From positions 1 through 60,616 of IMG/VR virus record IMGVR_UViG_3300017751_000016: a stretch of 60,616 nt of DNA; one strand, given 5' to 3'. The notes beneath the pieces are model-generated. The model made no database searches. It worked only from the letters and a program-made list of their open reading frames with translations, and was not told the DNA's origin. A program made the translations under genes and the position numbers. Of the stretch, positions 9,169 to 60,616 are shown one piece after another; within the stretch, counting starts at the first letter, position 1, and every line of letters starts with the position of its first letter. This DNA is from a virus.

Positions 9169-9714
9169 ATGGCTACTATTGTAACTAGAGCTGGCAAAGC
9201 ATCTGCACTCACAACGGCAGAAATGGATGCTAATTTTACAAATTTGAACGATGAGCTTGCGGCGGTAGATGTTAGTGGTAAGCTGGATGCCGCTAACGGT
9301 ACTGCTACCGGAACTTTGAACGCAGCTAATATCACTGCTACCGGAGATATTTCAGCGGACAACATCACTGCGGATCTTAAAGGTTACGGCGAAGTAATGC
9401 TGACAACTGCTTCTGCAACTGGTGCTATCAGTCTAGACTTATCTGCTGCTAATATCTTCAGACTAAATCTTACAGGAAACGCTACTGTAACTTTTACTAA
9501 TCCTCCTGCAGCGGGTTCTACTTCGGTTGCTACTATTATTGCAATTCAAGATGGATCTGGTGGTCATACAATTACGTGGACAGACGGTGCTTATGCCGGC
9601 GGTGTTGTTCCTCCTGCTACTACTGGCGCCAATGATGTTGATATTTGGACAGCATTTACATATGACCAAGGCACGTCATATGTTGTTTCTCTATCTATGA
9701 AGGATGTTAGCTAA
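9169..9714 (+). CDS. Short tail-fibre/attachment protein
   Basis: 181 aa. The N-terminus MATIVTRAGKASALTTAEMDANFTNLND is a small docking module seen again in the 34015 protein (PLTNTEVDNNFGNLN) and in many marine phage fibres. The rest is a beta-rich Thr/Ala/Asn sequence (GTLNAANITATGDISADNI). It probably sits on the tail or baseplate. It overlaps the next fibre gene by one base (TAATG), so the two are translationally coupled and may work together. Confidence 0.6.
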   Translation: MATIVTRAGKASALTTAEMDANFTNLNDELAAVDVSGKLDAANGTATGTLNAANITATGDISADNITADLKGYGEVMLTTASATGAISLDLSAANIFRLNLTGNATVTFTNPPAAGSTSVATIIAIQDGSGGHTITWTDGAYAGGVVPPATTGANDVDIWTAFTYDQGTSYVVSLSMKDVS

Positions 9715-11192: not shown

Positions 11193-11783
11193 ATGACCGG
11201 AATAAACAAGTATTTAGGTACTTTCGAATGCTATGCTCACATGAATCGAGCATTCACGGAAGAAGAAGTTGAAAAGATACGGGAGATAGAAGAACTACAG
11301 AGCTTTCAAAAAGGTACAATTAGCAGTAAGCTCTCAGGCACCGCCTTAAAGAAAGCAAGAGATTCAGATGTATTCTTTATGGACCATGATGAAAATACTG
11401 ATTGGTTGTATCAAAGAATGTCCTACCTAATAGCGCAAGCTAACCACGATCACTTTTTATATAATGTAGATGACTTTGGTCCCATGCAATATACTAAATA
11501 TAAAAAAGATGGTCACTACTGTTGGCATTGGGACGTATTCTTTGGTTGGCAGAAAAATGCTAGGAAAATATCAGTAGTAGTATTTTTGAATGAGCCAGAA
11601 GATTATGAAGGCGGCGAGTTTGAAATAGTTACTAATGGCAATCTAGATGAGATTAAGAAACTAAAACCTTTAAAAGGCGATGCACTGTTTTTTGCGTCTT
11701 GGATGCCACATCGAGTTTTACCGGTAACTTCTGGTGAAAGAAATACACTTGTGACTTGGGTTACTGGTCCTAGAGAATCGTAA
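11193..11783 (+). CDS. 2OG-Fe(II) oxygenase, prolyl-hydroxylase type
   Basis: 196 aa. The double-stranded beta-helix carries H112-W-D114 and H173 as iron ligands and R183, ten residues after the distal His, as the 2-oxoglutarate anchor. Surrounding motifs (YTKYKKDGHYCWHWD, KISVVVFLNEPEDYEGGEFEI, GDALFFASWMPHRVLPVTSGER) match the P4Hc/PKHD class of hydroxylases. Length is typical for phage members. It lies 54 bp after a Pro-rich repeat fibre and before a GlcNAc-transferase-like gene in the same operon, so the fibre repeats are the obvious candidate substrate (inference). Other 2OG oxygenase substrates cannot be excluded. Confidence 0.85.
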   Translation: MTGINKYLGTFECYAHMNRAFTEEEVEKIREIEELQSFQKGTISSKLSGTALKKARDSDVFFMDHDENTDWLYQRMSYLIAQANHDHFLYNVDDFGPMQYTKYKKDGHYCWHWDVFFGWQKNARKISVVVFLNEPEDYEGGEFEIVTNGNLDEIKKLKPLKGDALFFASWMPHRVLPVTSGERNTLVTWVTGPRES

Positions 11784-12511
11784 TGTTTAATTTTTTGAAG
11801 AGAAAAGAAAAGCCTATAATTGAGTTTTATTGTCATCCAAATGTCGAAGGTACTATTCCAGCTCCAAGACCAGCAAACAAACATGTGCCAGATTGGTTTA
11901 AAAGCATACCACCTACAATGACTGGACGTGATGCTAGAAATAGAAAAGGCCTGACTGCAAAAAAATGTATGCCAATGTTAGATGCAATGACACTAGGCTA
12001 TGTCATACCACTCTGCGGCGACCTTGGATTAAAGTCATCTGAGGACTGCGGCACTATTGAAGTTTTTAATCCTGAACCTATGAAATTGGCTGAGTTTCAT
12101 ACTCTAGATCAACTAGGACCAAAAGCTCCGGGTATGCCAGCGCCGCCAGTAAAATTTATTAATCCATGGGTTATAAAAACAGCACCCGGCTGGAGTACTT
12201 TAATAATTCCATTAGTGAACAACAGTCTTGCAAATCCTCACTTCACCTGTTTGGGTGGTCTGGTAGACACAGATACTTATCCTAAAGAGATTAACTTTCC
12301 TGCTGTTTGGCACACTCCAAATTTTGATGGCTTTCTACCGTCGGGCACTCCATTAGTACTAGCTATACCTATAAAGAGGTCTTCTGTTCCTAGAGAATGC
12401 GTGACTAGACCGATGACAGACAAAGAATTCAAAGATATTGATCTTTTACACAGAAGGCAATCCAATAAAATAAACGTCTACACTGATGAGTTGAGAGAGA
12501 AAAGAAAATAA
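11783..12511 (+). CDS. Unknown protein, DUF6065-like, paralogue 1
   Basis: 242 aa. Starts MFNFLKRKEKPIIEFYCHPN and has PAPRPANKHVPDWFKSIPP, a PDWFK signature that I associate with the DUF6065-type proteins of phages and marine bacteria. Other features are KKCMPMLDAMTLGYVIPLCGD and a C-terminal charged helix. It shares with the next protein a MF-x-(F/I)-(L/F)K start, the M(V/L)DAxxxGYVIP(A/L)C(G/C)D segment and a W-x-I/F-x(2)K/N-x..LI-P strand. It looks like a cupin-like beta fold and may act with the neighbouring modifying enzymes. Overlaps the oxygenase stop by one base and the next start by one base. Confidence 0.5.
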   Translation: MFNFLKRKEKPIIEFYCHPNVEGTIPAPRPANKHVPDWFKSIPPTMTGRDARNRKGLTAKKCMPMLDAMTLGYVIPLCGDLGLKSSEDCGTIEVFNPEPMKLAEFHTLDQLGPKAPGMPAPPVKFINPWVIKTAPGWSTLIIPLVNNSLANPHFTCLGGLVDTDTYPKEINFPAVWHTPNFDGFLPSGTPLVLAIPIKRSSVPRECVTRPMTDKEFKDIDLLHRRQSNKINVYTDELREKRK

Positions 12512-26557: not shown

Positions 26558-29500
26558 ATGGCTCTCAATTTAAATTCTTCCCCCTATTATGACGATTTTG
26601 ACGGTAACAAAAACTATTCTAGGATTTTGTTTAAGCCAGGAGTTGCGGTGCAAGCGAGAGAGCTTACTCAACTTCAGACTTTGTTGTCCGATCAATTATC
26701 TCAACTATCCAGCTTTACACTAAAAGATGGTGCAATAATCAGTGGGTGTGAGGAGAGAGTCTCATCTATTAGATATATTAAGATTAAAGACACTGATTTA
26801 GGTGGCACTGTAGTCAACAATAGTGACCTTTCAAATTATGTTGGCGCCGAAGTAATCGGTGGTACTACTGGAATAAAGGCACAGATAATTGCAGTCAGAC
26901 AAGGGGCCGAAGAAACTCCAGCTACCGCAAATGTAAAAACTCTATATCTCAACTACAACGACAGAGCAGGAACAGCCAGAAAAGTTTTTGCTATCGGCGA
27001 AACTCTTACTGTAGTTTCTCTCAATAATACGATCAGCGGCGATACTTTTGTCACATATGATTCTGGTGCAGAACCTACTGGCTCAAGATTGAGATATGAA
27101 GGATCAGCACCCAAAATAGAACTGAGTCCTGGTATAATTTATGCTCGTGGGTCTTTTATCAGAACTACCTCGCTCGCAGCTTTCATCGATCCTTTCGTTA
27201 TCGCTTCGGATAAAAATATTGGTTTCTATATTTCAGAAGCGGTAGTCGGATCATCGAATACAGGCTACAGCGATCTTTTAGATCCTGCTAGGGGTTCTTT
27301 TAACCACAATGCACCTGGAGCAGATCGTCTCCAGTTGGTTGCATCTCTTAGATCATACGATTATCAAACTGCTGCGCTGCCAGAAAATTTCTATCAGTAC
27401 GCAACTTGGCGCAACGGCGGAATGATAAGAAGTAAAATCAAGACAAATCCGTTAGCTGGCGTAGGCGATGCTATAGCTAAATCTGCTTTTGATGCAAATG
27501 GCAGCTATACTATAACTGGATTGCAAACTGTTATTCACGAACATCTTGCCCTCGATGGTAACGGAGGCCGCTTTAGTGCTGCACAAGGTGGCAGTGCCGA
27601 TAAGTTTGTATTTGCAATTACACCTGGTAAAGCAAATGTTGGCGGGTATCCAATTGAAAATAAAAATAAAGATTGGAAAATAACTATAGATAAACCTACC
27701 GACACCAAAATTGAAACCAGTATAGCACAATCAACTGCTTACGGAAACTATACATTAATTGATGAGACTTCTGGTGCGTGGGATGTTGACGGTGGAGAAA
27801 CTGTATCCCTATATGATACTGCACAGAACTCAGTGACTTCTGCAACTTTTTCTTCTACTTCTATCACTGGAAATCAAATAGGATCGGCAAAAATTAGATA
27901 TATTTCTCTCGATTCTGGTGATGCTGGAACTGCCGCAGCGCAATATAGATTATACATGTACGATATTAAAATGTCGAGTGGCACATTTAAAGACGTTGAA
28001 AGCATAGCGTATACTAATGATACTGCGAATGCAGTTGCTGATACTGTATTAGTAAGCGGCGAAGCTGTAATTCAAGAAGGCAACTATAATAGGCTAGTAT
28101 GGGAATTACCTTACGCAAGTCTAAAAACATTAAAAGCAAACAGTAGCGCATATAATTTTGATTTTAAATTTATTGACGAATTTGATGTCGAAGTAAACGG
28201 CAGCACTGGTGTAGTCGCATTATCTCCATCAGATCCTAGTAGTCAATCATTTTTCTTTGCAACTGGAACGCTTTCAGATTCTGTTATAACAAGCAACATT
28301 CATCTAGTTGCTGTTGACTCGTTTACTATTGGCTCAAAAACATATGCGGCAGGTGAATATGTAGATTTAACAGATGCTAGTGTGACGGTAACTTGTGCTG
28401 GAACAAGCTCAGTGTCAATAACATTTTCATCTCCTCCTACTGGTGGCAATGCTGATCTTAAAGCGTATGTTAATATGCAACAAAACAGCAACAAGAATCC
28501 TATTAGTAAAACATACACAAAAGACAAGATAGTTAAGATTGATACACAAGATGCTGGCGCACAGTCATTGGCTAGCAACTTATATTGCTTGGGTGTTTCT
28601 GATCTAATTAAAATTAAATCAATTACTGCAACTGATAATGCAGATTATGTTACCAATAGAGTCAATGTTACAAATGAATTCATAGTTGATAATGGACAAA
28701 GAGATAGTTACTATGGTCTTGCTAAATTAAAACAAAAAGCTACTAGTGCGTATGACTTGGCAACAAAAAGATATATTCTAGTAACATTAGATTATATGAT
28801 TTCTGCCGACGGTTCTACTGGACCAACATTTGCATGTGTAGATTCCTATTCTGCTGCAATTGCTGGCGGAGACATGACGTTACAAGAAATTCCTTTGTAT
28901 TATCCATCTTCAGGTAGAATAATTGATTTAAGAAATTGCATAGACTTTAGACCTTATGTAATTGATACCGCTGAATTGATAGACAAGGCAGCATTCGATG
29001 CTGCGGATGCAGCTGGTAAAACAGTACTATTGAATGCGGTAGCTGCAAATCCTAGTACAAATGAAGTGATCAATAGACCAACTAATGGATTAACAAATCC
29101 AGTACCAAGTGCAACTTTTAATACAAATCTAGAATACTATTTGGCACAAGCATTTAAGGTAGTAGTAACAGCAGAGGGCGAATTTAAAGTATTGACCTCA
29201 GATTCTGCTGAATTTCCAAAAATTCCACCAGTGCCGGATAATGCACTGACGATTTCTGAAGGTATATTTGCTCCGTATCCTTGTTTGTCGCCAAAGGCTG
29301 CTAATTATTATAAAAGAGCAGACTTAAAGGCTTACATCGAACAGGTAAGAACTAAGCGTTATACGATGAAAGATATTGGTGGACTAGAAAAAAGAATTGC
29401 CAATCTTGAATACTATACTGCTTTAAGTTTATTAGAAAAAGAATCCAAGTCATTAGAAATCCTTGATGCATCTGGTGTAGATAGATTTAAAAATGGATTA

Positions 29501-32500
29501 ATGATAGACGCATTCAATACATATGGTGTCATGGCAGTTGGTCATGATGACAATAAATGTTCTTTGGATCTAAAGAGACAGCAGTTAAGAGCCGCATTTG
29601 ATTCTAGTATCATTGCATTTAAACCAATTGCTACAAGTACAACAGTGGGACAAACTGGCGACATGTTCCATGTTCCATATGTTGAAGCCGTATATACAAA
29701 ACAACTGCAAGCTAGTAAAACAAAAAATCTAATCAGTGAATTGTTATTTGCTGATCCAGAGCCCTTGCCGGTTGTTCCTGATCCAATACCGGATCCAGCA
29801 CCTGCGCCGGTCATTCCTCAGCCACCTGTCACGCCTGTAACACCTCCGGTACCACCGAAAGCTGACGAACCTTATTATAACTTGATTCGTTCTTCTACTA
29901 CGATCAACGAAGGTCAGTCGGTTACTATATCGTTAGAGGTGTTAAATCTACCAAATCCACTTGGCACTACAGTAGGTTATTCAGTATCTGGTGTGGACTC
30001 AGCAGATATAAGTGGAGCATCTCTTACTGGTAGTTTCACGTTAGATGCTTCTGGAGACGCATCAGTAACTTTTAATACTGTCGCAGATGCTGATGCAGTG
30101 GATGAAACACTTACATTAACGCTAACAGGGTTGGCTGGAACTACTAAAGGAACTCTAAGTACTAGTGTTACAATATCTGATACTACGGTTATTATACCGC
30201 CGCCGCCACCTGTACTTGGACCATATGCTGGTTCGCTGAGTCTTTCTCCATCTCAAGATGCTTGGTTTGATGATAGCTACGCTGAACCTGCCTATCAGAA
30301 CAAAGAAGGTTCGTGGGATAACTTAGAAATAAAAGGCGACTGGAAAGAAACTTGGGGATCTTGGGAGTTAATATCAGAAGATATAGTCAATGCGACATCA
30401 ACTATAACTGAAGGCGAAATAGGAATTCCACCCAAGGGTTACGGTGGCAATTCGAGACCCACTTCAGTTGATATTGTAACTAAAGAAGAAGCAAATGGAT
30501 ACTGGGAAACAGAAGTAAAGACATATACTGGTCGCAGACAACTTTACGATATAACTACAACCATTGCTGGCAAAAATACGCAAACATGGGAAAGAACTGG
30601 CTCTCGTATATTCTACGGAACTATTCCAGACGAAGTTACTGAATCTACTGGCGACTCAGTTATCAATACTGAAGTTGCTGCATGGGTTCGACCTATTAGT
30701 ATAAGTGGTACTGTTGATGGTCTGATGCCAAATGCAGCTCATGCGATTGCTATGGGCGGCATAAGTAAGGGCAGCGTAACTTCTAATTCAAACGGTAGAG
30801 CTACTTTCTCTATCAGCGTAAATCAAGGCGAATTCAAATGTGGAAACATTACGGTTGAAGTTACTGATTCTAATGTAGCATCAGGAATTGATTCTTATGC
30901 GTCAGCAATATTTAGTGCGAATGGAAGTAAAAGAACTTTACAAACTACTTATGTTACTACCAGATGGCCAGAACCACCAGTAGGCGCAATTCCTCTTCAA
31001 GAAACAAAAACTGAAATACTTCCAGTTGGCGAAGATGGAAGAACACTGACGAAAAAAGGTGATATTATCATCACCACTGTACAGGAAGAAGGCGTTCCAA
31101 ATTGGATACCAGTAGACGATGTATTTGTAACTAGTTCTTGTGCCCTTGGTGTTGGTGACGGCACAATTGGAAATTCAATAAGCACCTACCAGAGATATGA
31201 TGGAACGACATACAATGTAGAAGAGCCGAGTGCTGCATGTACTCCTGCCGCACCAACAGAAGTGCTTACTTTAACTGCAATTGATACGAGTATTACTACT
31301 CTTACGCCAACCACTATTACTACAAAAGTAGTAGAAGAAGTTGATACAACTACTGGTACAGTTGCTCTAGTCCAAGCAGTTGATGATGTTATTGTAACTG
31401 AGGTTTCTCTTTTTGATACTGCTACAAATACTAACAGCGGAGGCGATGCATCTGGAGTAGTCACCGTGACACTATCGAATGATGCAATTTTGGTAGCCGA
31501 CGGACTTGACGAATCAGACTTTGTTGCCGGAGTAACTACTACTGAAGGTAGATATGCTGTTGCAACCGAAAACTTAATTCGTAGTGGTGGAGCTACTGTT
31601 GATTTAATCACAACTCCATTCTCCTCTACGATTAATGATGCTACAGTAAGTCCTGCTAACAATACTATAGTCGCAACGGCAGCTGCTGCATTTGATCATG
31701 CACCTATCTTTAAAATTCCAACATTCCAGCAAATTTCTGATAGCATTTGTATATTTGATCCATTGGCACAAACTTTCTATGTTACTGGAATGCCTGGAGG
31801 AATGTTCGTTCCTTCGATTGACGTATTCTTTAAGACTATATCAAGCGAAGCAAACAACAATGGTGTCACTCTTGAAATCAGAGAAGTTGTTAATGGAAAT
31901 CCTACTGCAAAAGTTGTACCTAACGGCAGAGTGTTCCTAAGAAGATCAGATGTTGACGCATCTGGAATAAATGCTGACGGCAGTGTTGATTTCAGATCAA
32001 CCAAATTTAGATTCAATCATCTTGTACATCTAAACAATGATACAGAGTATTGTATTGTTCTCAGACCAGAAGCCAATGATCCAGGATACGAAGCTTGGGT
32101 GGCAGAACTGGGCGAATTGCAAATTAATTCAACAAATAGAATTACAAAGCAAGCGCATGGCGGTGTATTGTTTACTTCTGCTAATGACAGAAGTTGGTCT
32201 GCACATCAATCAGAAGATTTGATGTTTATGGTCAACAGATGTAACTTTAAAACCAACACAGATTATGTACTTAACACAGCTAACAAAAATATTGATTGGA
32301 TTAAAGTAGACAATAATACATGGGACGATACAGTAGTTGATGGCAAAGTAAAAGCTCCTAAGTTTGATTTAGATTCTTTTGTCCACGGTTTCAAACTCAC
32401 ATTAGCAACTGCTGGTGACTATGCAACTGATGGCACATATGCTCTAACATTCACCGGCGGCGGCGGCTCAAACGCAGCGGGAACATACGTTGTATCAGGT

Positions 32501-33763
32501 GGACTTGTGACCACCGTCACACTAACTAATCCAGGAAATGGATACACTTCTGCTCCCACAATTACATTACCGCTTGGTACTCCTACGACACAAGCAACAG
32601 TCAGTGTTGAATTGAATAGGGGCCAAGTAACATATTTCGATTCTTTTTACAAAACGTGGGAAATACTAGTTACTGATGGAAAATTCACATCGGCTGATCT
32701 TATATCTGACGGTATTAATTTTGTCAATATTGATAGTATTAACGACAGAGTTGTTGACGCACATGTATTGAAAGCTTCGGTGATTAACCCAAATGAAAAA
32801 TGTTTTATAACTAAAAGTATCGCTCTAACGAAAACTGCGGCGGCTTCTGCTAACACTACACATACTTCGTTGGAGACAAATGCAACAGTTGAATTGGAAG
32901 AAGAGAAGACAATTTACAGCTATTCCAATGAGCAAAGAAATTATGCAGGAAATAAAACTGCTCTTGTTAAATTTACATTGAATACTCCTTTAAACAATCT
33001 TAGCCCGATAGTTGATCTTGCTGGAATGTCTATGGGTATGTACAAAAATAAAATAAACAATCCAAGTCCAGTGTCTGAAAGTGTCAGATTTGGTGGCAAC
33101 GCAGATGCCAAATATATTTCTCGTCAAGTAGTTCTTGCAGACAAACAAGATGCTGAAGATATGAGAGTATTCCTAGACAACAAAATACCCGCAGGTGCTG
33201 ACGTAGAAGTTTACGGTAAGTTTAGAAATGCAGAAGACGATGCTGAATTTGTAAATGATATTTTCTGGCACAAACTAGAAATTGAAACTTCTCCTAAAGT
33301 TAGAAGTGAAAATTTTGCACAGTATGTTTATAAGATTCCTGCAAAAGGTTCGAACTCATACGGAACAGATAGTGGTACTGGCGTATATGAGTATGAGGTT
33401 TATAGAATCAGCAACATTGCAGTCAGTGCTGGTGGTACTGGATATACTCAAGGCAGCGCACCAACAGTAACATTGACTCACTCGGCAGGAACTGGATACG
33501 GTGCAACAGCGGCAGCAATTGTTGAAAGTGGAGTTGTAACTGGTATTAAAATTACAAATCCTGGTCGTGGATACGATACTGGTACTGTAACTGCTACCCT
33601 CTCTGGCGGAGATGGAACTGGAGCGACTGCTGGTACTGTAACTGTTTCGCCAATTACATTCAAGGGATATAAAGATTTTGCAATAAAGATTGTTCACCTC
33701 AGTGACAATACTGCAAAAATACCTAAGTCTTCTGGACTTAGAGCATACGCATTACAGGTTTAA
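26558..33763 (+). CDS. Giant baseplate/fibre protein (2401 aa, DUF4815-like)
   Basis: The N-terminus, NSSPYYDDFDGNKNYSRILFKPGVAVQARELTQLQTLLSDQL, is the DUF4815-type start of large marine T4-like structural proteins. Around residues 1067-1101 is a Pro-rich linker (PVVPDPIPDPAPAPVIPQPP). Residues about 1105-1210 look like a Calx-beta domain (STTINEGQSVTISLEV...DADAVDETLTLTLTGL...VTISDT), followed by PPPPP at about 1213. The C-terminal part includes FDPLAQTFYVTGMPGGMFVPSIDVFF...RPEANDPGYEAWVAELGE and Gly-rich GYT repeats at about 1960-2015 and 2288-2368. It stands in the T4 gp9-gp12 region and probably combines wedge-pin and fibre-anchor roles. Function is inferred from position. Confidence 0.7.
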   Translation: MALNLNSSPYYDDFDGNKNYSRILFKPGVAVQARELTQLQTLLSDQLSQLSSFTLKDGAIISGCEERVSSIRYIKIKDTDLGGTVVNNSDLSNYVGAEVIGGTTGIKAQIIAVRQGAEETPATANVKTLYLNYNDRAGTARKVFAIGETLTVVSLNNTISGDTFVTYDSGAEPTGSRLRYEGSAPKIELSPGIIYARGSFIRTTSLAAFIDPFVIASDKNIGFYISEAVVGSSNTGYSDLLDPARGSFNHNAPGADRLQLVASLRSYDYQTAALPENFYQYATWRNGGMIRSKIKTNPLAGVGDAIAKSAFDANGSYTITGLQTVIHEHLALDGNGGRFSAAQGGSADKFVFAITPGKANVGGYPIENKNKDWKITIDKPTDTKIETSIAQSTAYGNYTLIDETSGAWDVDGGETVSLYDTAQNSVTSATFSSTSITGNQIGSAKIRYISLDSGDAGTAAAQYRLYMYDIKMSSGTFKDVESIAYTNDTANAVADTVLVSGEAVIQEGNYNRLVWELPYASLKTLKANSSAYNFDFKFIDEFDVEVNGSTGVVALSPSDPSSQSFFFATGTLSDSVITSNIHLVAVDSFTIGSKTYAAGEYVDLTDASVTVTCAGTSSVSITFSSPPTGGNADLKAYVNMQQNSNKNPISKTYTKDKIVKIDTQDAGAQSLASNLYCLGVSDLIKIKSITATDNADYVTNRVNVTNEFIVDNGQRDSYYGLAKLKQKATSAYDLATKRYILVTLDYMISADGSTGPTFACVDSYSAAIAGGDMTLQEIPLYYPSSGRIIDLRNCIDFRPYVIDTAELIDKAAFDAADAAGKTVLLNAVAANPSTNEVINRPTNGLTNPVPSATFNTNLEYYLAQAFKVVVTAEGEFKVLTSDSAEFPKIPPVPDNALTISEGIFAPYPCLSPKAANYYKRADLKAYIEQVRTKRYTMKDIGGLEKRIANLEYYTALSLLEKESKSLEILDASGVDRFKNGLMIDAFNTYGVMAVGHDDNKCSLDLKRQQLRAAFDSSIIAFKPIATSTTVGQTGDMFHVPYVEAVYTKQLQASKTKNLISELLFADPEPLPVVPDPIPDPAPAPVIPQPPVTPVTPPVPPKADEPYYNLIRSSTTINEGQSVTISLEVLNLPNPLGTTVGYSVSGVDSADISGASLTGSFTLDASGDASVTFNTVADADAVDETLTLTLTGLAGTTKGTLSTSVTISDTTVIIPPPPPVLGPYAGSLSLSPSQDAWFDDSYAEPAYQNKEGSWDNLEIKGDWKETWGSWELISEDIVNATSTITEGEIGIPPKGYGGNSRPTSVDIVTKEEANGYWETEVKTYTGRRQLYDITTTIAGKNTQTWERTGSRIFYGTIPDEVTESTGDSVINTEVAAWVRPISISGTVDGLMPNAAHAIAMGGISKGSVTSNSNGRATFSISVNQGEFKCGNITVEVTDSNVASGIDSYASAIFSANGSKRTLQTTYVTTRWPEPPVGAIPLQETKTEILPVGEDGRTLTKKGDIIITTVQEEGVPNWIPVDDVFVTSSCALGVGDGTIGNSISTYQRYDGTTYNVEEPSAACTPAAPTEVLTLTAIDTSITTLTPTTITTKVVEEVDTTTGTVALVQAVDDVIVTEVSLFDTATNTNSGGDASGVVTVTLSNDAILVADGLDESDFVAGVTTTEGRYAVATENLIRSGGATVDLITTPFSSTINDATVSPANNTIVATAAAAFDHAPIFKIPTFQQISDSICIFDPLAQTFYVTGMPGGMFVPSIDVFFKTISSEANNNGVTLEIREVVNGNPTAKVVPNGRVFLRRSDVDASGINADGSVDFRSTKFRFNHLVHLNNDTEYCIVLRPEANDPGYEAWVAELGELQINSTNRITKQAHGGVLFTSANDRSWSAHQSEDLMFMVNRCNFKTNTDYVLNTANKNIDWIKVDNNTWDDTVVDGKVKAPKFDLDSFVHGFKLTLATAGDYATDGTYALTFTGGGGSNAAGTYVVSGGLVTTVTLTNPGNGYTSAPTITLPLGTPTTQATVSVELNRGQVTYFDSFYKTWEILVTDGKFTSADLISDGINFVNIDSINDRVVDAHVLKASVINPNEKCFITKSIALTKTAAASANTTHTSLETNATVELEEEKTIYSYSNEQRNYAGNKTALVKFTLNTPLNNLSPIVDLAGMSMGMYKNKINNPSPVSESVRFGGNADAKYISRQVVLADKQDAEDMRVFLDNKIPAGADVEVYGKFRNAEDDAEFVNDIFWHKLEIETSPKVRSENFAQYVYKIPAKGSNSYGTDSGTGVYEYEVYRISNIAVSAGGTGYTQGSAPTVTLTHSAGTGYGATAAAIVESGVVTGIKITNPGRGYDTGTVTATLSGGDGTGATAGTVTVSPITFKGYKDFAIKIVHLSDNTAKIPKSSGLRAYALQV

Positions 33764-38443: not shown

Positions 38444-39100
38444 ATGAAATGGATTGATATTAATAATACTGAAATATCAGAAATTTTAAACTCGTATAGT
38501 GATTGGTTCTTTGACCAAGACTTAACTGAGCTAGATAAAATTGCAAATCATGAAGGCAGACATCAAGGCTACACTTTGTCAAAAGCGTGTGGTCTTGAAC
38601 ACCTAAAGGAAATTGTCACTAAAGATGGCGAACATATAGGTTATCCTGAGAAAACAATTTCAGTAGACATTGCTTCAGAAGATCGAGTATCGTCAGAGCA
38701 TAAGAAAAGATGTAGAGACATGGCGACTACATTGTGTTCTTATCTAGGTGCTAGAAATCAAGCTGTCAATGTGTATTATCCAGCAGCAGGTTTTATGAGT
38801 TGGCACAACAACTGGAATGCAGCAGGATATAATATTCTTCTGTCATACTCAAAAGAAGGAAATGGATTCTTTCGTTACAGAGATCCTATCACACACGAAG
38901 TAGTGAACATGCCAGACAAGCCTGGTTGGACATGTAAAGTAGGATACTTTGGAAAAGGTAGAGAACCAGACAAAGTGTTTTATCACTGTGCTGGCTCTCA
39001 TGAACAAAGACTGTCTTTAGGCTTTGTCGTACCTCACTTAGAAATGTGGCAAGACATGATTGAAGACATTTCAGGTGAAGACGCTACTTCGTTCCAATAG
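38444..39100 (+). CDS. 2OG-Fe(II) oxygenase-like protein
   Basis: 218 aa. The C-terminal half follows a double-stranded beta-helix pattern: NVYYPAAGFMSWHNNWNAAGYNILLSYSKEGNGFFRYRDP, then GWTCKVGYFG and VFYHCAGSHEQRLSLGFVV. The first iron motif reads H121-x-N123 instead of H-x-D, and H181 (or H186) with R189 would be the distal ligand and 2OG anchor. This HxN variant occurs in phage relatives I recall, but it may mean altered chemistry. Convergent with the minus-strand methyltransferase-like gene (17-bp overlap). Confidence 0.45.
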   Translation: MKWIDINNTEISEILNSYSDWFFDQDLTELDKIANHEGRHQGYTLSKACGLEHLKEIVTKDGEHIGYPEKTISVDIASEDRVSSEHKKRCRDMATTLCSYLGARNQAVNVYYPAAGFMSWHNNWNAAGYNILLSYSKEGNGFFRYRDPITHEVVNMPDKPGWTCKVGYFGKGREPDKVFYHCAGSHEQRLSLGFVVPHLEMWQDMIEDISGEDATSFQ

Positions 39101-39740
39101 CCATAAAACGATCAAACTCATTTAGACCGTCAAACGTCCAGTATTTTTGTTTAATAGAACCTTGATACTGGACATTTTTTATGCCTGTGTTTTCTATATG
39201 ATTTTCAATTGAGTCTACACAATTAATACCATACATTTCTTTGATTAAGTTTGAATTCTGAACAGCAAATATACAATCAGGGTTTGATGTGGTTAGCTCT
39301 TTCAAAGGATACATAGTTTCTGCACACATTGATATAAGAACATCGCTATGTAAAGCATTAATATCATGAAACGCAAACGGAACATCCCAATTGATATGAT
39401 TTAAATCGATGCCTTGTTCTCTATAGTAACGATTGAATACTTGCGATAGTTCTAATGCGTCTTTATCAATATCAATCAAGTTTATTTTTCCAACATTAAA
39501 GTTTTCACAGAGTAAAGGAACTAGTGGAAATCCTAACCAAGAATTTAAGACAGTTATAGTTAATTTTTTATTTGTATCTAACACAGTGTCTAGTTCTTCA
39601 CACAACCAAATAGCAGCTTCCATTGAATTTGGATTTAAAGACTTTCTAAAGTCTTCTTGCTTGTAAGGCATTTCATGATTAATCTTATCTAGACCATCAC
39701 CCCAATTTTTGTAGTTGTTCAAAAAATTATAATTTAACAT
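39084..39740 (-). CDS. Methyltransferase-like protein
   Basis: 218 aa from ATG 39740 (GGAG about 10 nt upstream); an upstream ATG at 39764 would add eight residues but has no ribosome site. TITVLNSWLGFPLVPLLCENFNVGKINLIDIDKDALELSQVFN fits a class I SAM-binding fold (motif I degenerate, motif II acidic LIDID). ISMCAETMYPL could be the motif-IV region. Last gene of the minus-strand glycosyltransferase run. Substrate unknown, perhaps a glycan. Confidence 0.5.
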   Translation of the reverse strand: MLNYNFLNNYKNWGDGLDKINHEMPYKQEDFRKSLNPNSMEAAIWLCEELDTVLDTNKKLTITVLNSWLGFPLVPLLCENFNVGKINLIDIDKDALELSQVFNRYYREQGIDLNHINWDVPFAFHDINALHSDVLISMCAETMYPLKELTTSNPDCIFAVQNSNLIKEMYGINCVDSIENHIENTGIKNVQYQGSIKQKYWTFDGLNEFDRFMAIGTK

Positions 39741-39747
39741 CTTCCGG

Positions 39748-40410
39748 TCACTCCATAGAATCATATAAACACACTAGTAGATTGTCTCGTACTACATGCT
39801 TCTCAATATCAGTAGGCCATATATAGCCATTGTTGTAACTGTAAACCCATCCATCTGGGAAGTGATCTATTTTTAATAATCTTTCACGTTGATGAGCAAA
39901 TAGATTATCTAGGCCACGATAGTAGAAAAACATTTGTGATGGATAGTCACGAACAAATTTTGTGATCTTGTCAATATTTAGTCTGTCGTTCCAACGCAAT
40001 ACTGATGAGTTCAATTCAGTGTACGCCCACGGAATATCTACAACATCTCGTTTCATTTTTTTAAGATTGTGCCAACAAGTTCTAATGAATGTCAAGTTAT
40101 CTTCAGGATCGTAGTTCACAATACAATCTATATTTTGTTGTATCTCAACATCTAAGTCTAGAAAAAGCTTTTCGCCTTTTTGAGTGACAACAGTGCGATC
40201 AAACAGATATAATTTGTTCCACCATTTTTCATAGTAGTTGTCTTCAGGTAAATCAATCACTAAGATATCAGGATTCAATCCCCAAGGAGCTTCTGTTAAA
40301 CAATAGAAGTCAAACTCCTCAGTAATATGTTCTTTACACATTTCGTGTATTTTATTTACATGTTCGTGTGAGTATTTTTCTCCCCACTTCACGGTATAAA
40401 TGCTAATCAT
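39748..40410 (-). CDS. Glycosyltransferase-like paralogue 4 (DxD)
   Basis: 220 aa from ATG 40410 (ATGA overlap with the upstream stop). Family pattern shared by all four: V-KWG-KY--E-VN-I--M near the start, LFLDLDVEIQQNID (metal site), then an FNSS/LNSSVL-W strand and an FPDGWVYSYNNGY region. Likely a GT-A fold cytosolic glycosyltransferase. Shortest C-terminus of the four. Confidence 0.6.
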   Translation of the reverse strand: MISIYTVKWGEKYSHEHVNKIHEMCKEHITEEFDFYCLTEAPWGLNPDILVIDLPEDNYYEKWWNKLYLFDRTVVTQKGEKLFLDLDVEIQQNIDCIVNYDPEDNLTFIRTCWHNLKKMKRDVVDIPWAYTELNSSVLRWNDRLNIDKITKFVRDYPSQMFFYYRGLDNLFAHQRERLLKIDHFPDGWVYSYNNGYIWPTDIEKHVVRDNLLVCLYDSME

Positions 40411-41234
40411 TTCCAATGCTCCAATAAATTTGGATCTGCTAAATCATCTTGTTTAGTGCTGCCTCTGCTTTTATCTTCAAATGGTAGCAAGTCAATATTA
40501 AACACACATAAGATAGCATCTTCTCTGTATGTATCTACTGCTAAATCTCCTTCATCCCAGTCTCTTCCTCTGTTGTAAGAATAAGCCATCCAACTAGGAA
40601 AATGTCCCCATAGTGGAGTATTGCTAAAGTCTCCCCAACGCCAACTGTGGTAGTTATCAGTGCCGTCTGTAAACGTGAACCAGATTCTTTCTTGGTGTTC
40701 TAGTACATCTTCCCAAATCACTTCGCACTGATCGTCACTCCATACTTGACAGCTACCATTTGTGTATGCGCCATGGGCGAGCTTGAAGTTTCTGCTGTTC
40801 ATCGGACGAGGATCTTGCCACCAACTACGAAGTTTAGTAGGACGATCTAAATCGTATGTAATGATAGGGCCCATATCATTCTGTATAATAACATCGAGAT
40901 CCAAGAAAACGAAACGACCAGTGGGTGTATCGTCAGCAAAATTATGAGTGTTGAAGACAAAAGTCTTAGGACGATCCCAACAGCGAGCCATATTGTATTT
41001 AAAATCATCAGTACCAAACCAATACTTAGGATGAATGCTGTCAATGTCAGGGAAGTCAATTACTTTAATCTCCTCGTCTAGTCCTTCAGGATGTTCTGTG
41101 TAGCAATAGAAGTGAAAATCAAACTTCTCTGGATCAGTGTGGCGTTTTGCCATGTTTTTTAGTTTGTTGACAAAGTGAGGGCCGTACTTAGTACCCCACT
41201 TACAGCAAACATAATTAACTCTCATCTTACTCAT
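40407..41234 (-). CDS. Glycosyltransferase-like paralogue 3 (DxD)
   Basis: 275 aa from ATG 41234 (ATGA overlap). VNYVCCKWGTKYGPHFVNKLKNMAKRH, FVFLDLDVIIQNDMG (DxD), SWWQDPRP, GSCQVWSDDQC, GTDNYHSWRWGD, WMAYSYNRGRDW. Ends DDLADPNLLEHWK, the same tail as paralogue 2 (LDEPNLLLLWDS), which points to tandem duplication. Confidence 0.6.
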   Translation of the reverse strand: MSKMRVNYVCCKWGTKYGPHFVNKLKNMAKRHTDPEKFDFHFYCYTEHPEGLDEEIKVIDFPDIDSIHPKYWFGTDDFKYNMARCWDRPKTFVFNTHNFADDTPTGRFVFLDLDVIIQNDMGPIITYDLDRPTKLRSWWQDPRPMNSRNFKLAHGAYTNGSCQVWSDDQCEVIWEDVLEHQERIWFTFTDGTDNYHSWRWGDFSNTPLWGHFPSWMAYSYNRGRDWDEGDLAVDTYREDAILCVFNIDLLPFEDKSRGSTKQDDLADPNLLEHWK

Positions 41235-41992
41235 ACTGAGTCCCAAAGTAATAATAGGTTAGGCTCATCTAATTGTTCAAGTTTTATCTGCTTTTTCGCA
41301 GCAGGATCTGGAGTCAAGTCTGTATTGAATATACAAACTTTCGGATCAGGTCTAAATACTTTAGATTCAAGATCGTCAGGATATTTCATGCCTCTGTTAT
41401 AAGAATACACCCAATCGTGTGGTATATTTTTCCAGAAATCTCTTTGGCGCCAATAATGATAGTTATCTGATCCTTTAAAAAATGTAGTAAATACTATGTC
41501 TTCGTTTATCAGAACGTCATGGTAGATATGTTTACATTGCTCGCCTTTCCAGCACATCATGCTAGAGTTATAAAATGTTCCTCTAATTTCTATAAACAGT
41601 CTTTCATGAATTTGCTTTGGATCTTGCCAGTTAGAATGTACAATTCTAGGCTTCTCTGCTAATTCTTCTAGCTCGTCTATGTTGTTCTGAATGATTACAT
41701 CTAAATCAAAATAACACCACTTTCCTTCGTAGCCTAGCCATTCTTGAGAATTGAATACGAGAAACTTAGCACGATCCCAACAATAGTTTTCTTTACCGAA
41801 CCAATGACCTGGATGCAAAACACCGTCATCTGGAATAGGGTGTGTGTCACACTCCAGCCCTTCGCTGTCATCTGTGTAACAGGTAAATGTGAAAGGCTTC
41901 GTGTAGTTCTTTTCAACCATGCGATAAAGGTTATTCACATAGTCAGGAGAGTACTTATCACCCCATTTTATGCATACAAAATTCATGCTCAT
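41231..41992 (-). CDS. Glycosyltransferase-like paralogue 2 (DxD)
   Basis: 253 aa from ATG 41992. FVCIKWGDKYSPDYVNNLYRMVEKN, WCYFDLDVIIQNNID (DxD), SNWQDPKQIHERLF, SSMMCWKGEQC, GSDNYHYWRQRD, WVYSYNRGMKYP. Closest to paralogue 3. A second ATG (41986) two codons later is equally possible. Overlaps paralogue 1 by 35 nt. Confidence 0.6.
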   Translation of the reverse strand: MSMNFVCIKWGDKYSPDYVNNLYRMVEKNYTKPFTFTCYTDDSEGLECDTHPIPDDGVLHPGHWFGKENYCWDRAKFLVFNSQEWLGYEGKWCYFDLDVIIQNNIDELEELAEKPRIVHSNWQDPKQIHERLFIEIRGTFYNSSMMCWKGEQCKHIYHDVLINEDIVFTTFFKGSDNYHYWRQRDFWKNIPHDWVYSYNRGMKYPDDLESKVFRPDPKVCIFNTDLTPDPAAKKQIKLEQLDEPNLLLLWDSV

Positions 41993-42608
41993 ATTCTTTC
42001 TCAATATCGGGAAAGTCTGCTTGCCCGTTTAGTAATGCTATTGTTTTGTCTGGCTGATATTTGTTGCCAGAGAATTTAAATGAGTATATCTCGTCTTCTG
42101 GAAAATGCTCGAAAGTAAAGTTTTCATGGTACAAGAATCTATCGTCACCTGCGTATTTAACCATGTAGTAATCTTTGTTTTCTTCCCAGTAATTATATAT
42201 ATGTCTTGCATCTTCCCACAACATTACACTAGAGTTGAAGTTGCTTAGATAATTAAACGACCATCTAGCGTCTTTATGATAAGGAAAGTTTTTATCTTTC
42301 CAATAAGTATAGCAAATGACAGGGGCATTGTCAAGTAAATCAAACAAATGATCTATATCATGTTGTATTCTTACATCTAGGTCTAGATACAGTATCTTGC
42401 CGTAAGTATGTAGGTTGAATAATTTTACCTTTTCCCAGTGACCTTCTACTTCTTTGTCTATCGGTATTGTATAAATATCTTCATACAATTCTGTATTATC
42501 ATCTGTTACGCACACATAATTGTACTTCCCATCAGTCGCATCATATATGCGATTGACATCACCGGCAGTGTATTTACTGCCATATTTTAGTGTCAAAATT
42601 GTTTTCAT
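41958..42608 (-). CDS. Glycosyltransferase-like paralogue 1 (DxD)
   Basis: 216 aa from ATG 42608. ILTLKYGSKYTAGDVNRIYDAT, ILYLDLDVRIQHDIDHLF (DxD), FNYLSNFNSSVMLWED, YAGDDRFLYHENF, EIYSFKFSGNKYQPD. First gene of the minus-strand cluster. No Shine-Dalgarno is visible before the ATG, and no exact late promoter is visible on this strand, so the cluster may be expressed early or middle. Confidence 0.6.
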   Translation of the reverse strand: MKTILTLKYGSKYTAGDVNRIYDATDGKYNYVCVTDDNTELYEDIYTIPIDKEVEGHWEKVKLFNLHTYGKILYLDLDVRIQHDIDHLFDLLDNAPVICYTYWKDKNFPYHKDARWSFNYLSNFNSSVMLWEDARHIYNYWEENKDYYMVKYAGDDRFLYHENFTFEHFPEDEIYSFKFSGNKYQPDKTIALLNGQADFPDIEKEYEHEFCMHKMG

Positions 42609-42625
42609 ATTGAATATCAATTTGT

Positions 42626-57398: not shown

Positions 57399-58559
57399 AT
57401 GGGTGTAGAAAACAAGATCCGAGAGCTTATGGAGGGCGCAGCAAATCGTCCTAAAGATAAGCAACAAGGTGATGCTTCTAATCCTACACAAGGCGATTCA
57501 AACGCAAATCCTGAAATGCAAGACCTTAGTGGTACTGGCAATGCAGAAGGCGGATTGACTTCACCTGTGGGTAAAGCGGCATCAGCAAAAGAAGGTAAAG
57601 ATACTACTTTACCTAAAGGCGCAGGAGCAGGTAAAGCACCTAACTTTGACGCCAAAGAAGATCCAAGATCCGTAGTTATGCAAAAATCATCTGCTGGTGT
57701 TCGTGAAGACGTTGACACTGACGAAGATGAAGTTATTGCTGAAGACGAAGTTGTAACTGACGAAGTTATTGCTGAAGACGAAGTTGTTGCTGAAGACGCA
57801 GAAGAGATTGCTGAGGAAGAAGTATCAGTAGAAGAGAATGCTTTGTTCGAAGCCGATCTTAAAGCTCTATTTGCAGACGAAGAGCATCTCACAGAAGAAT
57901 TTAAAGTAAGAGCAGCCGAAGTATTCGAAGCTGTTGTTACGTCTAGAGTTAGTGCTGAAATTGCAAGCATTGAAGAAGAACTTACTGAGGCAGCAAATGT
58001 TGAATTTGAGTCACAGTTAGAGCAAATGGTGGAAAATGTTGACAAGTATCTTTCTTATGTCACTGAAAACTGGATGGCGCAGAACGAAATTGCTATCGAG
58101 AACGGTGTTCGTACTGAGGTTACTGAGTCTTTCATCAAGGGACTACAGCAAGTATTCTCTGAGCATTACATCGAAGTACCAGAAGAGAAGTATGATGTAA
58201 TGGCTGAGATGCAAACAAAAATTGATAGCCTAACTGCTACACTTGACGAAGAGATTCAGTCTAAGATGGCGATTCAGGAAGAGTCAATCACTTTGAAGAA
58301 GCAAGCTGTATTCACTAAACTCTCAGAAGGCCTAGCGTCAACTGAAGCAGAAAAATTTGCGACATTAGTCGAAGACATTACTTACACAGGTATGGATTCA
58401 TATGAGCAAAAACTTCAGGTAGTCAAAGAAAACTATTTCCCATCTGAGAAAGTAGTTTCTGAGTCTGTACTTGAGGACACATTTGAAGGTAGTGATGAGA
58501 TAACCAACAATGTTATGTCTAAGTACACTCAAGCAATTTCAAAATCAACTAAGTTCTAA
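57399..58559 (+). CDS. gp22: Prohead scaffold gp22
   Basis: 386 aa, very acidic (VDTDEDEVIAEDEVVTDEVIAEDEVVAEDAEEIAEEEVSVEE at about 107-147). The helical C-terminal half has the gp22 pattern FKVRAAEVFEAVVTSRVSAEIASIEEELTEAANVEFES, VDKYLSYVTENWMAQNEIAIENGVRTEVTESFIKGLQQVFSEHYIEVPEEKYD. The internal acidic repeat (EVIAEDEVV twice) is a marine elaboration. Confidence 0.93.
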   Translation: MGVENKIRELMEGAANRPKDKQQGDASNPTQGDSNANPEMQDLSGTGNAEGGLTSPVGKAASAKEGKDTTLPKGAGAGKAPNFDAKEDPRSVVMQKSSAGVREDVDTDEDEVIAEDEVVTDEVIAEDEVVAEDAEEIAEEEVSVEENALFEADLKALFADEEHLTEEFKVRAAEVFEAVVTSRVSAEIASIEEELTEAANVEFESQLEQMVENVDKYLSYVTENWMAQNEIAIENGVRTEVTESFIKGLQQVFSEHYIEVPEEKYDVMAEMQTKIDSLTATLDEEIQSKMAIQEESITLKKQAVFTKLSEGLASTEAEKFATLVEDITYTGMDSYEQKLQVVKENYFPSEKVVSESVLEDTFEGSDEITNNVMSKYTQAISKSTKF

Positions 58560-58620: not shown

Positions 58621-59883
58621 ATGTATCTTTCAGAGCAAATTGAAAGCAAGTGGGCACCAGTCCTCGAACATGCTGATCTGACACCTATCGCAGATCCGTA
58701 TAAGAAGGCTGTAACTGCTGTTATTCTAGAAAACCAAGAAAAAGCCCTTCGTGAAGAGAAGGGTATCATGGAAGCAACTCATACTAACGCCACTGGCGCT
58801 AGTGTTGACAACTATGACCCAATCCTAATCAGCCTTGTTAGACGAGCTTTGCCTAACTTGATGGCTTATGACGTTGCTGGTGTTCAGCCAATGACTGGTC
58901 CTACTGGTTTGATCTTCGCTATGAAGTCACACTACACTAGCCAGACTGGTACTGAAGCACTCTTCAACGAAGCTGACACTGACTTCTCTGGTGCTGGTAC
59001 TCACGCAGGTTCTAACCCTGTTGACGGTTCTTACACTACTGGTAACGGTGTATCTACTTCTACTGCTGAAGGCTTCGGCGATTCAACTACTTTGAACGAG
59101 ATGGCTTTCTCAATCGAGAAGACTACTGTTACAGCTAAGTCTCGTGCATTGAAAGCTGAGTACACTGTAGAACTCGCACAAGACCTCAAAGCAATCCACG
59201 GTCTTGACGCTGAGTCAGAGCTTTCTAACATTCTTTCACAAGAAATTCTTGCTGAAATTAACCGTGAAGTTATCCGTACTATCTACAAGGTAGCTAAGCC
59301 GGGTTCTGCTTCAACTGCTACTCCTGGTACTTTCGACCTTGACGTTGACTCAAACGGTCGTTGGTCAGTAGAGCGTTTCAAAGGTCTCTTGTTCAACATC
59401 GAGCGTGATGCTAACGTGATTGCACAAGATACTCGTAGAGGCAAAGGTAACTTCATCATCTGTTCATCAGACGTTGCAAGTGCCCTCGCAATGGCTGGCG
59501 TACTTGATTACACGCCTGCTCTTTCTACTAACTTGAATGTTGACGATACTGGTAACACTTTCGCTGGTGTTCTTAACGGTCGTTACAAAGTTTACATCGA
59601 TCCATACAGTGCTAACACTGGTGCTGCATCGCAGTTCTACGTTGCTGGCTACAAAGGTACTTCACCTTATGACGCTGGTCTCTTCTACTGCCCATACGTT
59701 CCATTACAAATGGTTCGTGCGATTGACCCTAACACCTTCCAGCCTAAAATCGGCTTTAAGACTCGTTACGGCATGGTTGCTAACCCATACGTTACACAAG
59801 CTGATGGTACTACTGACGCAGATACATTTACTGCTGATCGTAACCAGTACTACCGTGCTGTTAAGGTTTCAAACCTTATGTAA
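58621..59883 (+). CDS. gp23: Major capsid protein gp23
   Basis: 420 aa. Hallmarks: VRRALPNLMAYDVAGVQPMTGPTGLIFAMKSHY, LNEMAFSIEKTTVTAKSRALKAEYTVELAQDLKAIHGLDAESELSNILSQEILAEINREVIRTIY, GKGNFIICSSDVASALAMAGVLDY, DAGLFYCPYVPLQMVRAIDPNTFQPKIGFKTRYGMV. An I-M-E site at 49-51 in the N-terminal peptide fits gp21 cleavage. Codon choice is noticeably more optimised (GGT, ACT, GAC, AAC) than neighbours, as expected for the most abundant protein. Terminator follows. Confidence 0.97.
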   Translation: MYLSEQIESKWAPVLEHADLTPIADPYKKAVTAVILENQEKALREEKGIMEATHTNATGASVDNYDPILISLVRRALPNLMAYDVAGVQPMTGPTGLIFAMKSHYTSQTGTEALFNEADTDFSGAGTHAGSNPVDGSYTTGNGVSTSTAEGFGDSTTLNEMAFSIEKTTVTAKSRALKAEYTVELAQDLKAIHGLDAESELSNILSQEILAEINREVIRTIYKVAKPGSASTATPGTFDLDVDSNGRWSVERFKGLLFNIERDANVIAQDTRRGKGNFIICSSDVASALAMAGVLDYTPALSTNLNVDDTGNTFAGVLNGRYKVYIDPYSANTGAASQFYVAGYKGTSPYDAGLFYCPYVPLQMVRAIDPNTFQPKIGFKTRYGMVANPYVTQADGTTDADTFTADRNQYYRAVKVSNLM

Positions 59884-59915
59884 GATAAAAAGAATTGCGT
59901 TAAGCAATCATTTTG

Positions 59916-59943
59916 AAAGGGCTCTTCGGAGCCCTTTTTTTTT
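59916..59943 (+). terminator. Rho-independent terminator after gp23
   Basis: AAAGGGCTC, TTCG tetraloop, GAGCCCTTT, then a long T-run to 59943. Near-perfect terminator. Confidence 0.9.
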
Positions 59944-59988: not shown

Positions 59989-59996
59989 TATAAATA
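59989..59996 (+). promoter_or_regulatory. T4-type late promoter for cytochrome gene
   Basis: Exact TATAAATA, 36 nt before ATG 60033. This ties the following metabolic gene to the phage late programme. Confidence 0.82.
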
Positions 59997-60032
59997 GTCA
60001 TGAAACACATTATATTTAAATAGAGGTGTATT

Positions 60033-60616
60033 ATGAAATCAATTATCGGAACAGTACTAGTAGCACCAGCACTATTGCTTATGCTTTCTACTACAGCATC
60101 ACGGCCAGTAATGGCACAAACATATACAGAAAAAGTTGCTGACATTATCAACAACAATTGCGTAGTCTGTCACAGAGAAGGTGGCATTGGGCCAATGAGC
60201 TTTGAGACTTACGAGCAAGTCAGACCATGGGCACCACTTATCTCGCTCAAAGTAGCAACACGAGAAATGCCTCCATACGCATACGATCATGGCATCGGCA
60301 TTCAAAGTTTACAAGGCGATTGGCGTCTATCGCAAAACGATATTGATACCGTAGTCGCTTGGGTAAACGGTGGTTCACTATACGGCGATCCAGATACGAT
60401 GGTGCAAGCACCACCTCTTAGAGATCCAGAAGCATGGAATTTCGAAGCCGACTTTGGCGCACCTGATGCAATCATTCCTTCAGTAGCAATTGATATTCCT
60501 GCGAACGGTAATGATTTGTGGCACAAACATTTAGTACCTACAGGTCTTACTGAAGATCGTTGTATTAAAGCAGTACAAGTTAAGCCTCGTGGCAATGCAA
60601 AGGCAGTAGTGCATCA
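60033..60616 (+). CDS. Exported c-type cytochrome / monooxygenase-like protein (partial)
   Basis: 194 codons open to the window end; ATG 60033 with AGAGG ribosome site. A signal peptide (KSIIGTVLVAPALLLMLSTTA, then VMA-QT cleavage) sends it to the periplasm. The mature N-terminus has VADIINNNCVVCHREGGIGPMSFETYEQVRPW: a CxxCH haem site at about 43-47. The distal Met ligand may be the one in REMPPYAYD. DWRLSQNDIDTVVAWVNGGSLYGDP ends the cytochrome domain. The following IDIPANGNDLWHKHLVPTGLTEDRCIKAVQVKPRGNAKAVVH is the start of the domain found in copper ascorbate-dependent monooxygenase-like bacterial proteins, where a VHH follows. The family is bacterial and not known to me in phages. Phage late promoter upstream argues it is a true viral gene. 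Confidence 0.78.
   Translation, partial: MKSIIGTVLVAPALLLMLSTTASRPVMAQTYTEKVADIINNNCVVCHREGGIGPMSFETYEQVRPWAPLISLKVATREMPPYAYDHGIGIQSLQGDWRLSQNDIDTVVAWVNGGSLYGDPDTMVQAPPLRDPEAWNFEADFGAPDAIIPSVAIDIPANGNDLWHKHLVPTGLTEDRCIKAVQVKPRGNAKAVVH

Follow-up and report, generated by a model that had tools for sequence, protein, structure and literature searches.

A candidate cytochrome c-fused, PHM/DBM-fold copper monooxygenase encoded next to the major capsid gene of T4-like phages

Directly downstream of the major capsid gene, the phage DNA studied here carries the 5' part of a gene, called A below, whose product is predicted to be secreted and to combine a cytochrome c with a part resembling type II copper monooxygenases. 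Judged from the sequences of its complete relatives and from their modelled fold, gene A is probably an auxiliary metabolic gene (AMG) for a secreted haem c type II (PHM/DBM-fold) dicopper monooxygenase, which would mostly be made together with a second subunit, B. On the best reading, the enzyme would be periplasmic, fed by its cytochrome and made late in the development of T4-like phages. The initial annotation of this DNA had suggested an "electron carrier or oxidase". The cytochrome part of that suggestion stands; for the rest, the protein is more probably a dicopper monooxygenase of the PHM/DBM fold that carries its own haem c and is usually encoded together with B.

Gene A and its late promoter

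The window, that is, the whole stretch of DNA analysed, corresponds to one entire IMG/VR record (60616 bases), and the 3' end of gene A is missing because the contig stops there. What is present (60033..60614, plus strand; 194 aa, open at the 3' end) covers only half of the gene. Upstream on the same strand lie gp22 (scaffold protein, 57399..58559, assigned by Pfam/PHROGs profile searches), gp23 (major capsid protein, 58621..59883; PF07068, E=4e-142) and a predicted intrinsic terminator, a stem-loop at 59915..59938. The ATG of gene A stands behind the ribosome-binding site AGAGGTG (60022..60028, plus strand), and GAGGTGTATT-ATG is present in its relatives too.

The first 28 residues (60033..60116) form a signal peptide predicted by eye, MKSIIGTVLVAPALLLMLSTTASRPVMA followed by Q, with cleavage after VMA and before QTYT (RPVMA/QTYT). 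Nearly all relatives of A have a hydrophobic N-terminal leader, the sequence of which varies. The haem c attachment site, CVVCH (C43, C46, H47; 60159..60173), is invariant among 106 aligned homologues, and the Pfam cytochrome c match over this region is weak. M79, within REMPPY (60267..60269), corresponds to M55 of the mature protein from the related contig L029; it is conserved in 106/106 aligned homologues and is the probable distal haem ligand. The CxxCH motif, the signal peptide and the distal ligand together mark A as a c-type cytochrome, with haem attachment predicted. The PHM/DBM-fold copper domain begins at 60429 and is cut at 60614 after H194, which is both the last residue of the window copy and the first histidine of the HH pair of the CuH site; thus only the very start of this domain is inside the window.

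An exact match to the T4-type late promoter, TATAAATA, is found at 59989..59996 (plus strand), 44 nt before the gene A ATG. The octamer occurs 15 times in the window against 5.5 expected from shuffling, and further copies directly precede gp18, gp19, gp22 and gp23. Among gp23-linked contigs, a few of which are near-copies of each other, TATAAATA lies 37-67 nt upstream of the gene A start codon in all 21 tested, whereas it precedes gene A in only 1 of the 17 contigs with other surroundings. The single exception, L017, belongs to a 340-kb record that itself has a T4-like gp23. The contigs with other surroundings serve as a built-in control for reading the octamer as a promoter, and the octamer just upstream would make gene A a T4-type late gene. 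The late promoter, the signal peptide and the CxxCH motif directly after gp23 and its terminator, all noted in the initial annotation, are indeed present.

Two other features of the window may be recorded. The late region encodes a 2401-aa protein (26558-33763; PHROG 358, E=2e-256), and about five minus-strand ORFs of 220-280 aa lie inside the plus-strand late region at 39084-42620, the two that were searched having no Pfam match.

Phage linkage, carriers and cellular origin

A scan of IMG/VR showed that at least 233 viral stretches encode relatives of gene A. One of them, L002, comes from another metagenome, has the same gp23-gene A junction (99.9% identity over 3.8 kb) and carries the gene A frame on to 281 aa. 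When the window proteins were compared by tblastn with the fetched loci, gp23 was found to be followed by gene A in 22 contigs, many of them with the full gp18-19-20-21-22-23 order. Beyond the gene A region, L012, L042 and L029 encode a tail-tube-like protein and UvsY (the neighbours in L042 and L029 being assigned by similarity of ORFs), and L012 further on encodes the UvsW helicase. Phage genes, which the initial annotation proposed to look for on both sides of gene A, are thus found there in its relatives. L042, a T4-like phage with both A and B, also carries a fragment of an AMP-binding (acyl-CoA/adenylating) enzyme, 223 aa long (11385-12056), between the tail-tube-like gene and uvsY; a host A/B-like cluster has an AMP-binding enzyme as well.

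Carriers of gene A extend beyond T4-like phages to unrelated phages in which the gene lies elsewhere than next to the capsid gene. Their terminases are clearly different (438-439 aa, 523-524 aa and a divergent 552 aa type), and the carriers include records of 217-340 kb, from which it follows that at least four phage lineages have gene A. Gene A has no match in a collection of 50,697 annotated phage records, and all viral members of the family known here come from metagenomes. For this family, the earlier statement that c-type cytochromes are "rare to absent" in phages does not hold in view of the IMG/VR scan, even though the annotated records have no match. In a viral record of 230 kb, L063, a gene for a NifU-like iron-sulphur scaffold protein (9205-9579; PF01592, E=1.6e-51) directly follows A.

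The cellular relatives belong to marine gammaproteobacteria labelled Pseudohongiella, OM182, Pseudomonadales and similar. In the tree of A, the viral rows form one clade (SH-aLRT 99) nested among gammaproteobacterial genes, next to L083-L086, and the nearest host A genes are 81-88% identical to viral A. By these sequence relationships, viral A derives from Pseudohongiellaceae-like marine gammaproteobacteria. A viral-type A falling in the viral clade is also carried by L082 (PBPT01000016.1, 335 kb), a contig of a MAG labelled Neomarinimicrobiota, with a clamp-loader-like gene near A (recognized by eye) and a T4-like gp23 in the same MAG; this contig is therefore probably a large phage binned with a bacterium. 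The median dN/dS, calculated by NG86 from pairs of which some are close to saturation at synonymous sites, is 0.087 for viral A and 0.082 for viral B, values indicating that both genes are under strong purifying selection. Host-derived as far as its sequence tells, flanked by phage genes and apparently kept under selection, gene A has the attributes of a phage AMG.

Host genomes contain 13-36 matches to B each, a few genes being counted as two pieces, and their cytochrome c-PHM genes often stand 2-5 in tandem (L083-L158, G036-G045). In a sample of the family to which G036 belongs, and which includes the Pseudohongiella chromosome G044, close A homologues occur in 32 of 59 genomes. This expansion in cells apparently represents an undescribed oxygenase family, independent of phages. 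The surroundings of some host genes include an MFS transporter, beta-propellers, an AMP-binding enzyme and a PQQ dehydrogenase, and DprE-like, UbiA-like and RND-like genes were recognized by eye around the host B ortholog; these neighbourhoods point to no clear pathway or substrate.

Gene B, the predicted fold and the metal ligands

Complete A proteins are about 417-434 aa long (typically ~425 aa) and consist of a cytochrome c and a C-terminal domain that is covered by no named Pfam model. The only Pfam match on A is to cytochrome c, below threshold; NCBIfam gives only a weak cytochrome c6 match, far below threshold, and PHROGs has no family for A. Cu2_monooxygen and Cu2_monoox_C do not match A, and one B protein reaches Cu2_monooxygenase only below threshold (E=0.095; 12.6 bits against a cut-off of 23). 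Searches of PDB sequences, with single sequences and with profiles, returned no PHM match. Since sequence searches thus miss both Pfam Cu2_monooxygenase and PHM, family membership rests on the predicted fold together with the motifs. The missed Pfam cut-off reflects a limit of model sensitivity and is not a biochemical criterion.

The mature L029 protein was modelled with AlphaFold, using no templates and 106 homologues (pLDDT 86, pTM 0.84). An earlier model built from 24 near-identical viral sequences had a pLDDT of 48, which rose to 86 when cellular homologues and B were added. In a Foldseek comparison with the PDB, PHM and DBH account for all of the best 31 matches (E 2e-12 to 5e-9). Re-alignment gave a Z of 18.7 with human DBH (267 residues, 3.7 A) and of 18.5 with PHM 1sdw (247 residues, 2.8 A); an unrelated fold comes next, at 8.4. 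The model therefore predicts for A the tandem jelly-roll fold of PHM. Among the predicted viral structures of BFVD no PHM-like match was found, the top matches being spurious.

The copper ligands of PHM are H107/H108/H172 for CuH and H242/H244/M314 for CuM, several of which are named in PDB mutant titles. The corresponding residues of A occur in the same order, H170/H171/H217/H297/H299/M382 in mature L029 numbering, and the sequence GG[ST]xxxDEM around the CuM methionine (M314 of rat PHM) is common to A and rat PHM. All the viral A (11/11), cellular A (65/65) and viral B (9/9) proteins compared agree at each of the ten haem and copper ligand positions, so that by sequence all three groups have the HH...H pattern of a CuH site and the HxH...M pattern of a CuM site. 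In the relatives the frame runs on intact past the end of the window, through the paired histidines and the Met/His copper ligands, and this second check suggested in the initial annotation also turned out in its favour. The proposal that the window holds a c-type cytochrome joined to the beginning of a domain resembling copper monooxygenases is borne out by these ligands and by the predicted PHM/DBM fold.

Gene B, which encodes a protein of about 390-420 aa, lies directly after or near A in 44 viral contigs. Comparison of profiles with hhalign shows A and B to be homologous end to end (362 columns, 100% probability), and the haem and copper ligands of A recur in B. It is missing downstream of A in 13 contigs in which at least 1.6 kb of downstream sequence is present; 12 B-less records were searched throughout, and the sole match was A itself. 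B is therefore dispensable, unless these contigs are incomplete. Viral B forms one clade (100/100), which is sister to a host B ortholog with weak support (84/57) and on a long branch. The host B-type ortholog is 51-57% identical to phage B and longer (568-609 aa), and its N-terminus bears an additional region that is absent from the phage protein. A separate small cytochrome c gene (9266-9634; PF00034, E=2.9e-7) stands between A and B in L048, a 126-kb phage record, and a small gene similar to it is found in L036 (9441-9812).

Proposed function and comparison with known systems

A and B would be exported late in infection, the host attaching haem c to CxxCH and supplying copper. The N-terminal cytochrome domain may then take electrons from the periplasmic c-type pool of the host, filling the role that ascorbate plays in animal PHM/DBM, and deliver them to the two copper sites, CuH (HH...H) and CuM (HxH...M). 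With O2 activated at CuM, the enzyme would hydroxylate a small molecule in the periplasm. In this way the phage could keep an oxidation going during the shut-off of host synthesis, one that its gammaproteobacterial host carries out by means of many paralogs. A broader proposition we consider about evenly balanced: that phages of at least four lineages carry a complete, previously undescribed two-protein PHM/DBM system of the periplasm, wired to cytochrome and massively expanded in marine Pseudohongiellaceae, in which the paralogs encoded side by side cooperate and haem c replaces ascorbate. The open-access papers searched included none about PHM-like enzymes of phages or about fusions of cytochrome c with PHM, which is weak evidence of absence.

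It is conceivable, though unlikely, that A and B are not hydroxylases, and that they form a periplasmic electron-transfer, oxygen-reducing or copper/haem-handling module built on the PHM fold, serving as an electron sink or in protection against peroxide or copper. Both proteins have a haem c domain, and the "type C" paralogs of the hosts keep the haem and CuH sites and have R/N/S in place of the CuM HxH in 17 of 21 cases (RARM in the gene at L083:2594-4408, minus strand), implying that a complete CuM site is not needed for the scaffold to be of use. The loss of HxH in this paralog clade suggests a non-oxygenating or regulatory member. However, CuM is the O2-activating site in PHM/DBM; its complete set (HxH...M) is present in viral A, viral B and all cellular A, and the CuM-less variants form a separate clade.

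There is less to be said for A and B as virion-associated or envelope proteins, acting in capsid decoration, attachment or superinfection exclusion and selected for position or late expression and not for catalysis. Such a role would suit the adjoining gp23 and the late promoter seen in T4-like phages, but the signal peptide should direct A to the periplasm, the gene lies far from the capsid genes in other phage lineages, and a full catalytic ligand set has been kept under strong purifying selection. Display on the virion surface, which the initial annotation considered, is favoured by none of the present results.

A peptide-amidation (PAM-like) or N-acylglycine-oxidising system is quite improbable. 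The PHM fold would fit it, and some host clusters contain NHL-repeat/SGL beta-propeller proteins, which share their fold class with the PAM lyase, and an acyl-CoA-ligase-like enzyme; however, no propeller gene was seen by eye beside the phage A-B pair in the loci listed. In PHM the carboxylate of the substrate glycine is bound by R240, N316 and Y318. A motif alignment with rat PHM places Q295/H384/W386 of A and L/F/A of B at these positions, and with these residues replaced a glycine-extended peptide is an unlikely substrate. By this alignment A is not a PHM sensu stricto, and PAM-like amidation was judged unlikely.

The joining of a host gene to phage DNA, in a chimeric contig or at a prophage edge, might be suspected from the place of gene A at the contig end and from the cellular origin of its family, but it is ruled out by the recurrence of the identical junction in 22 independent contigs, the match in L002, the phage genes downstream, the distinctness of the viral clade from cellular genes and the tie of the late promoter to the gp23 context.

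A secreted dicopper monooxygenase thus remains the preferred reading of A, and its relation to known proteins can be set out as follows. A resembles animal PHM and DBM/DBH in its predicted two-subdomain fold (Z about 18), in the ligand order HH...H...HxH...M and in GG[ST]xxxDEM. It differs from them in being bacterial and phage-borne, with only about 11-14% identity, in the haem c domain fused at its N-terminus, and in giving no Pfam Cu2_monooxygenase match over the cut-off; it also lacks the conserved substrate-carboxylate residues of PHM. Small type I cytochromes c (PF00034/PF13442) share the CxxCH motif and a weak profile match with A; unlike in these proteins, the likeness is confined to the first ~110 residues and stays below Pfam cut-offs, the copper domain being the main part of A. 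Direct homologues exist in Pseudohongiellaceae and related marine gammaproteobacteria as uncharacterised paralogs of the cytochrome c - PHM-like type, and a large oxygenase family that has had no name becomes visible in this way. In the hosts the orthologs are scattered (G036, G037 and G039 have their best A ortholog and their best B ortholog on separate contigs) and B is longer, whereas phages pair A with a shortened B, a natural experiment on which host paralogs cooperate. With their predicted haem and copper sites, A and B are expressible proteins and make a directly testable system. They imply that phages can depend on host periplasmic cytochrome c maturation in late infection, and they point to an O2-using reaction that phages may keep running in the host periplasm.

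Precedents for copper-monooxygenase AMGs are pmoC of methanotroph phages (PMC7674155) and amoC of marine viruses (PMC8115048), each a phage-borne gene from an abundant aquatic host, which link phages to methane and ammonia oxidation. They are analogous and not homologous to A, since they belong to the unrelated, membrane-bound CuMMO family. The phages concerned carry one subunit only, whereas the carriers of A encode a complete predicted dicopper domain together with its haem donor. A would extend these known cases to another superfamily of copper oxygenases, one otherwise known from work on animals and here fused to a cytochrome and selected across several phage lineages.
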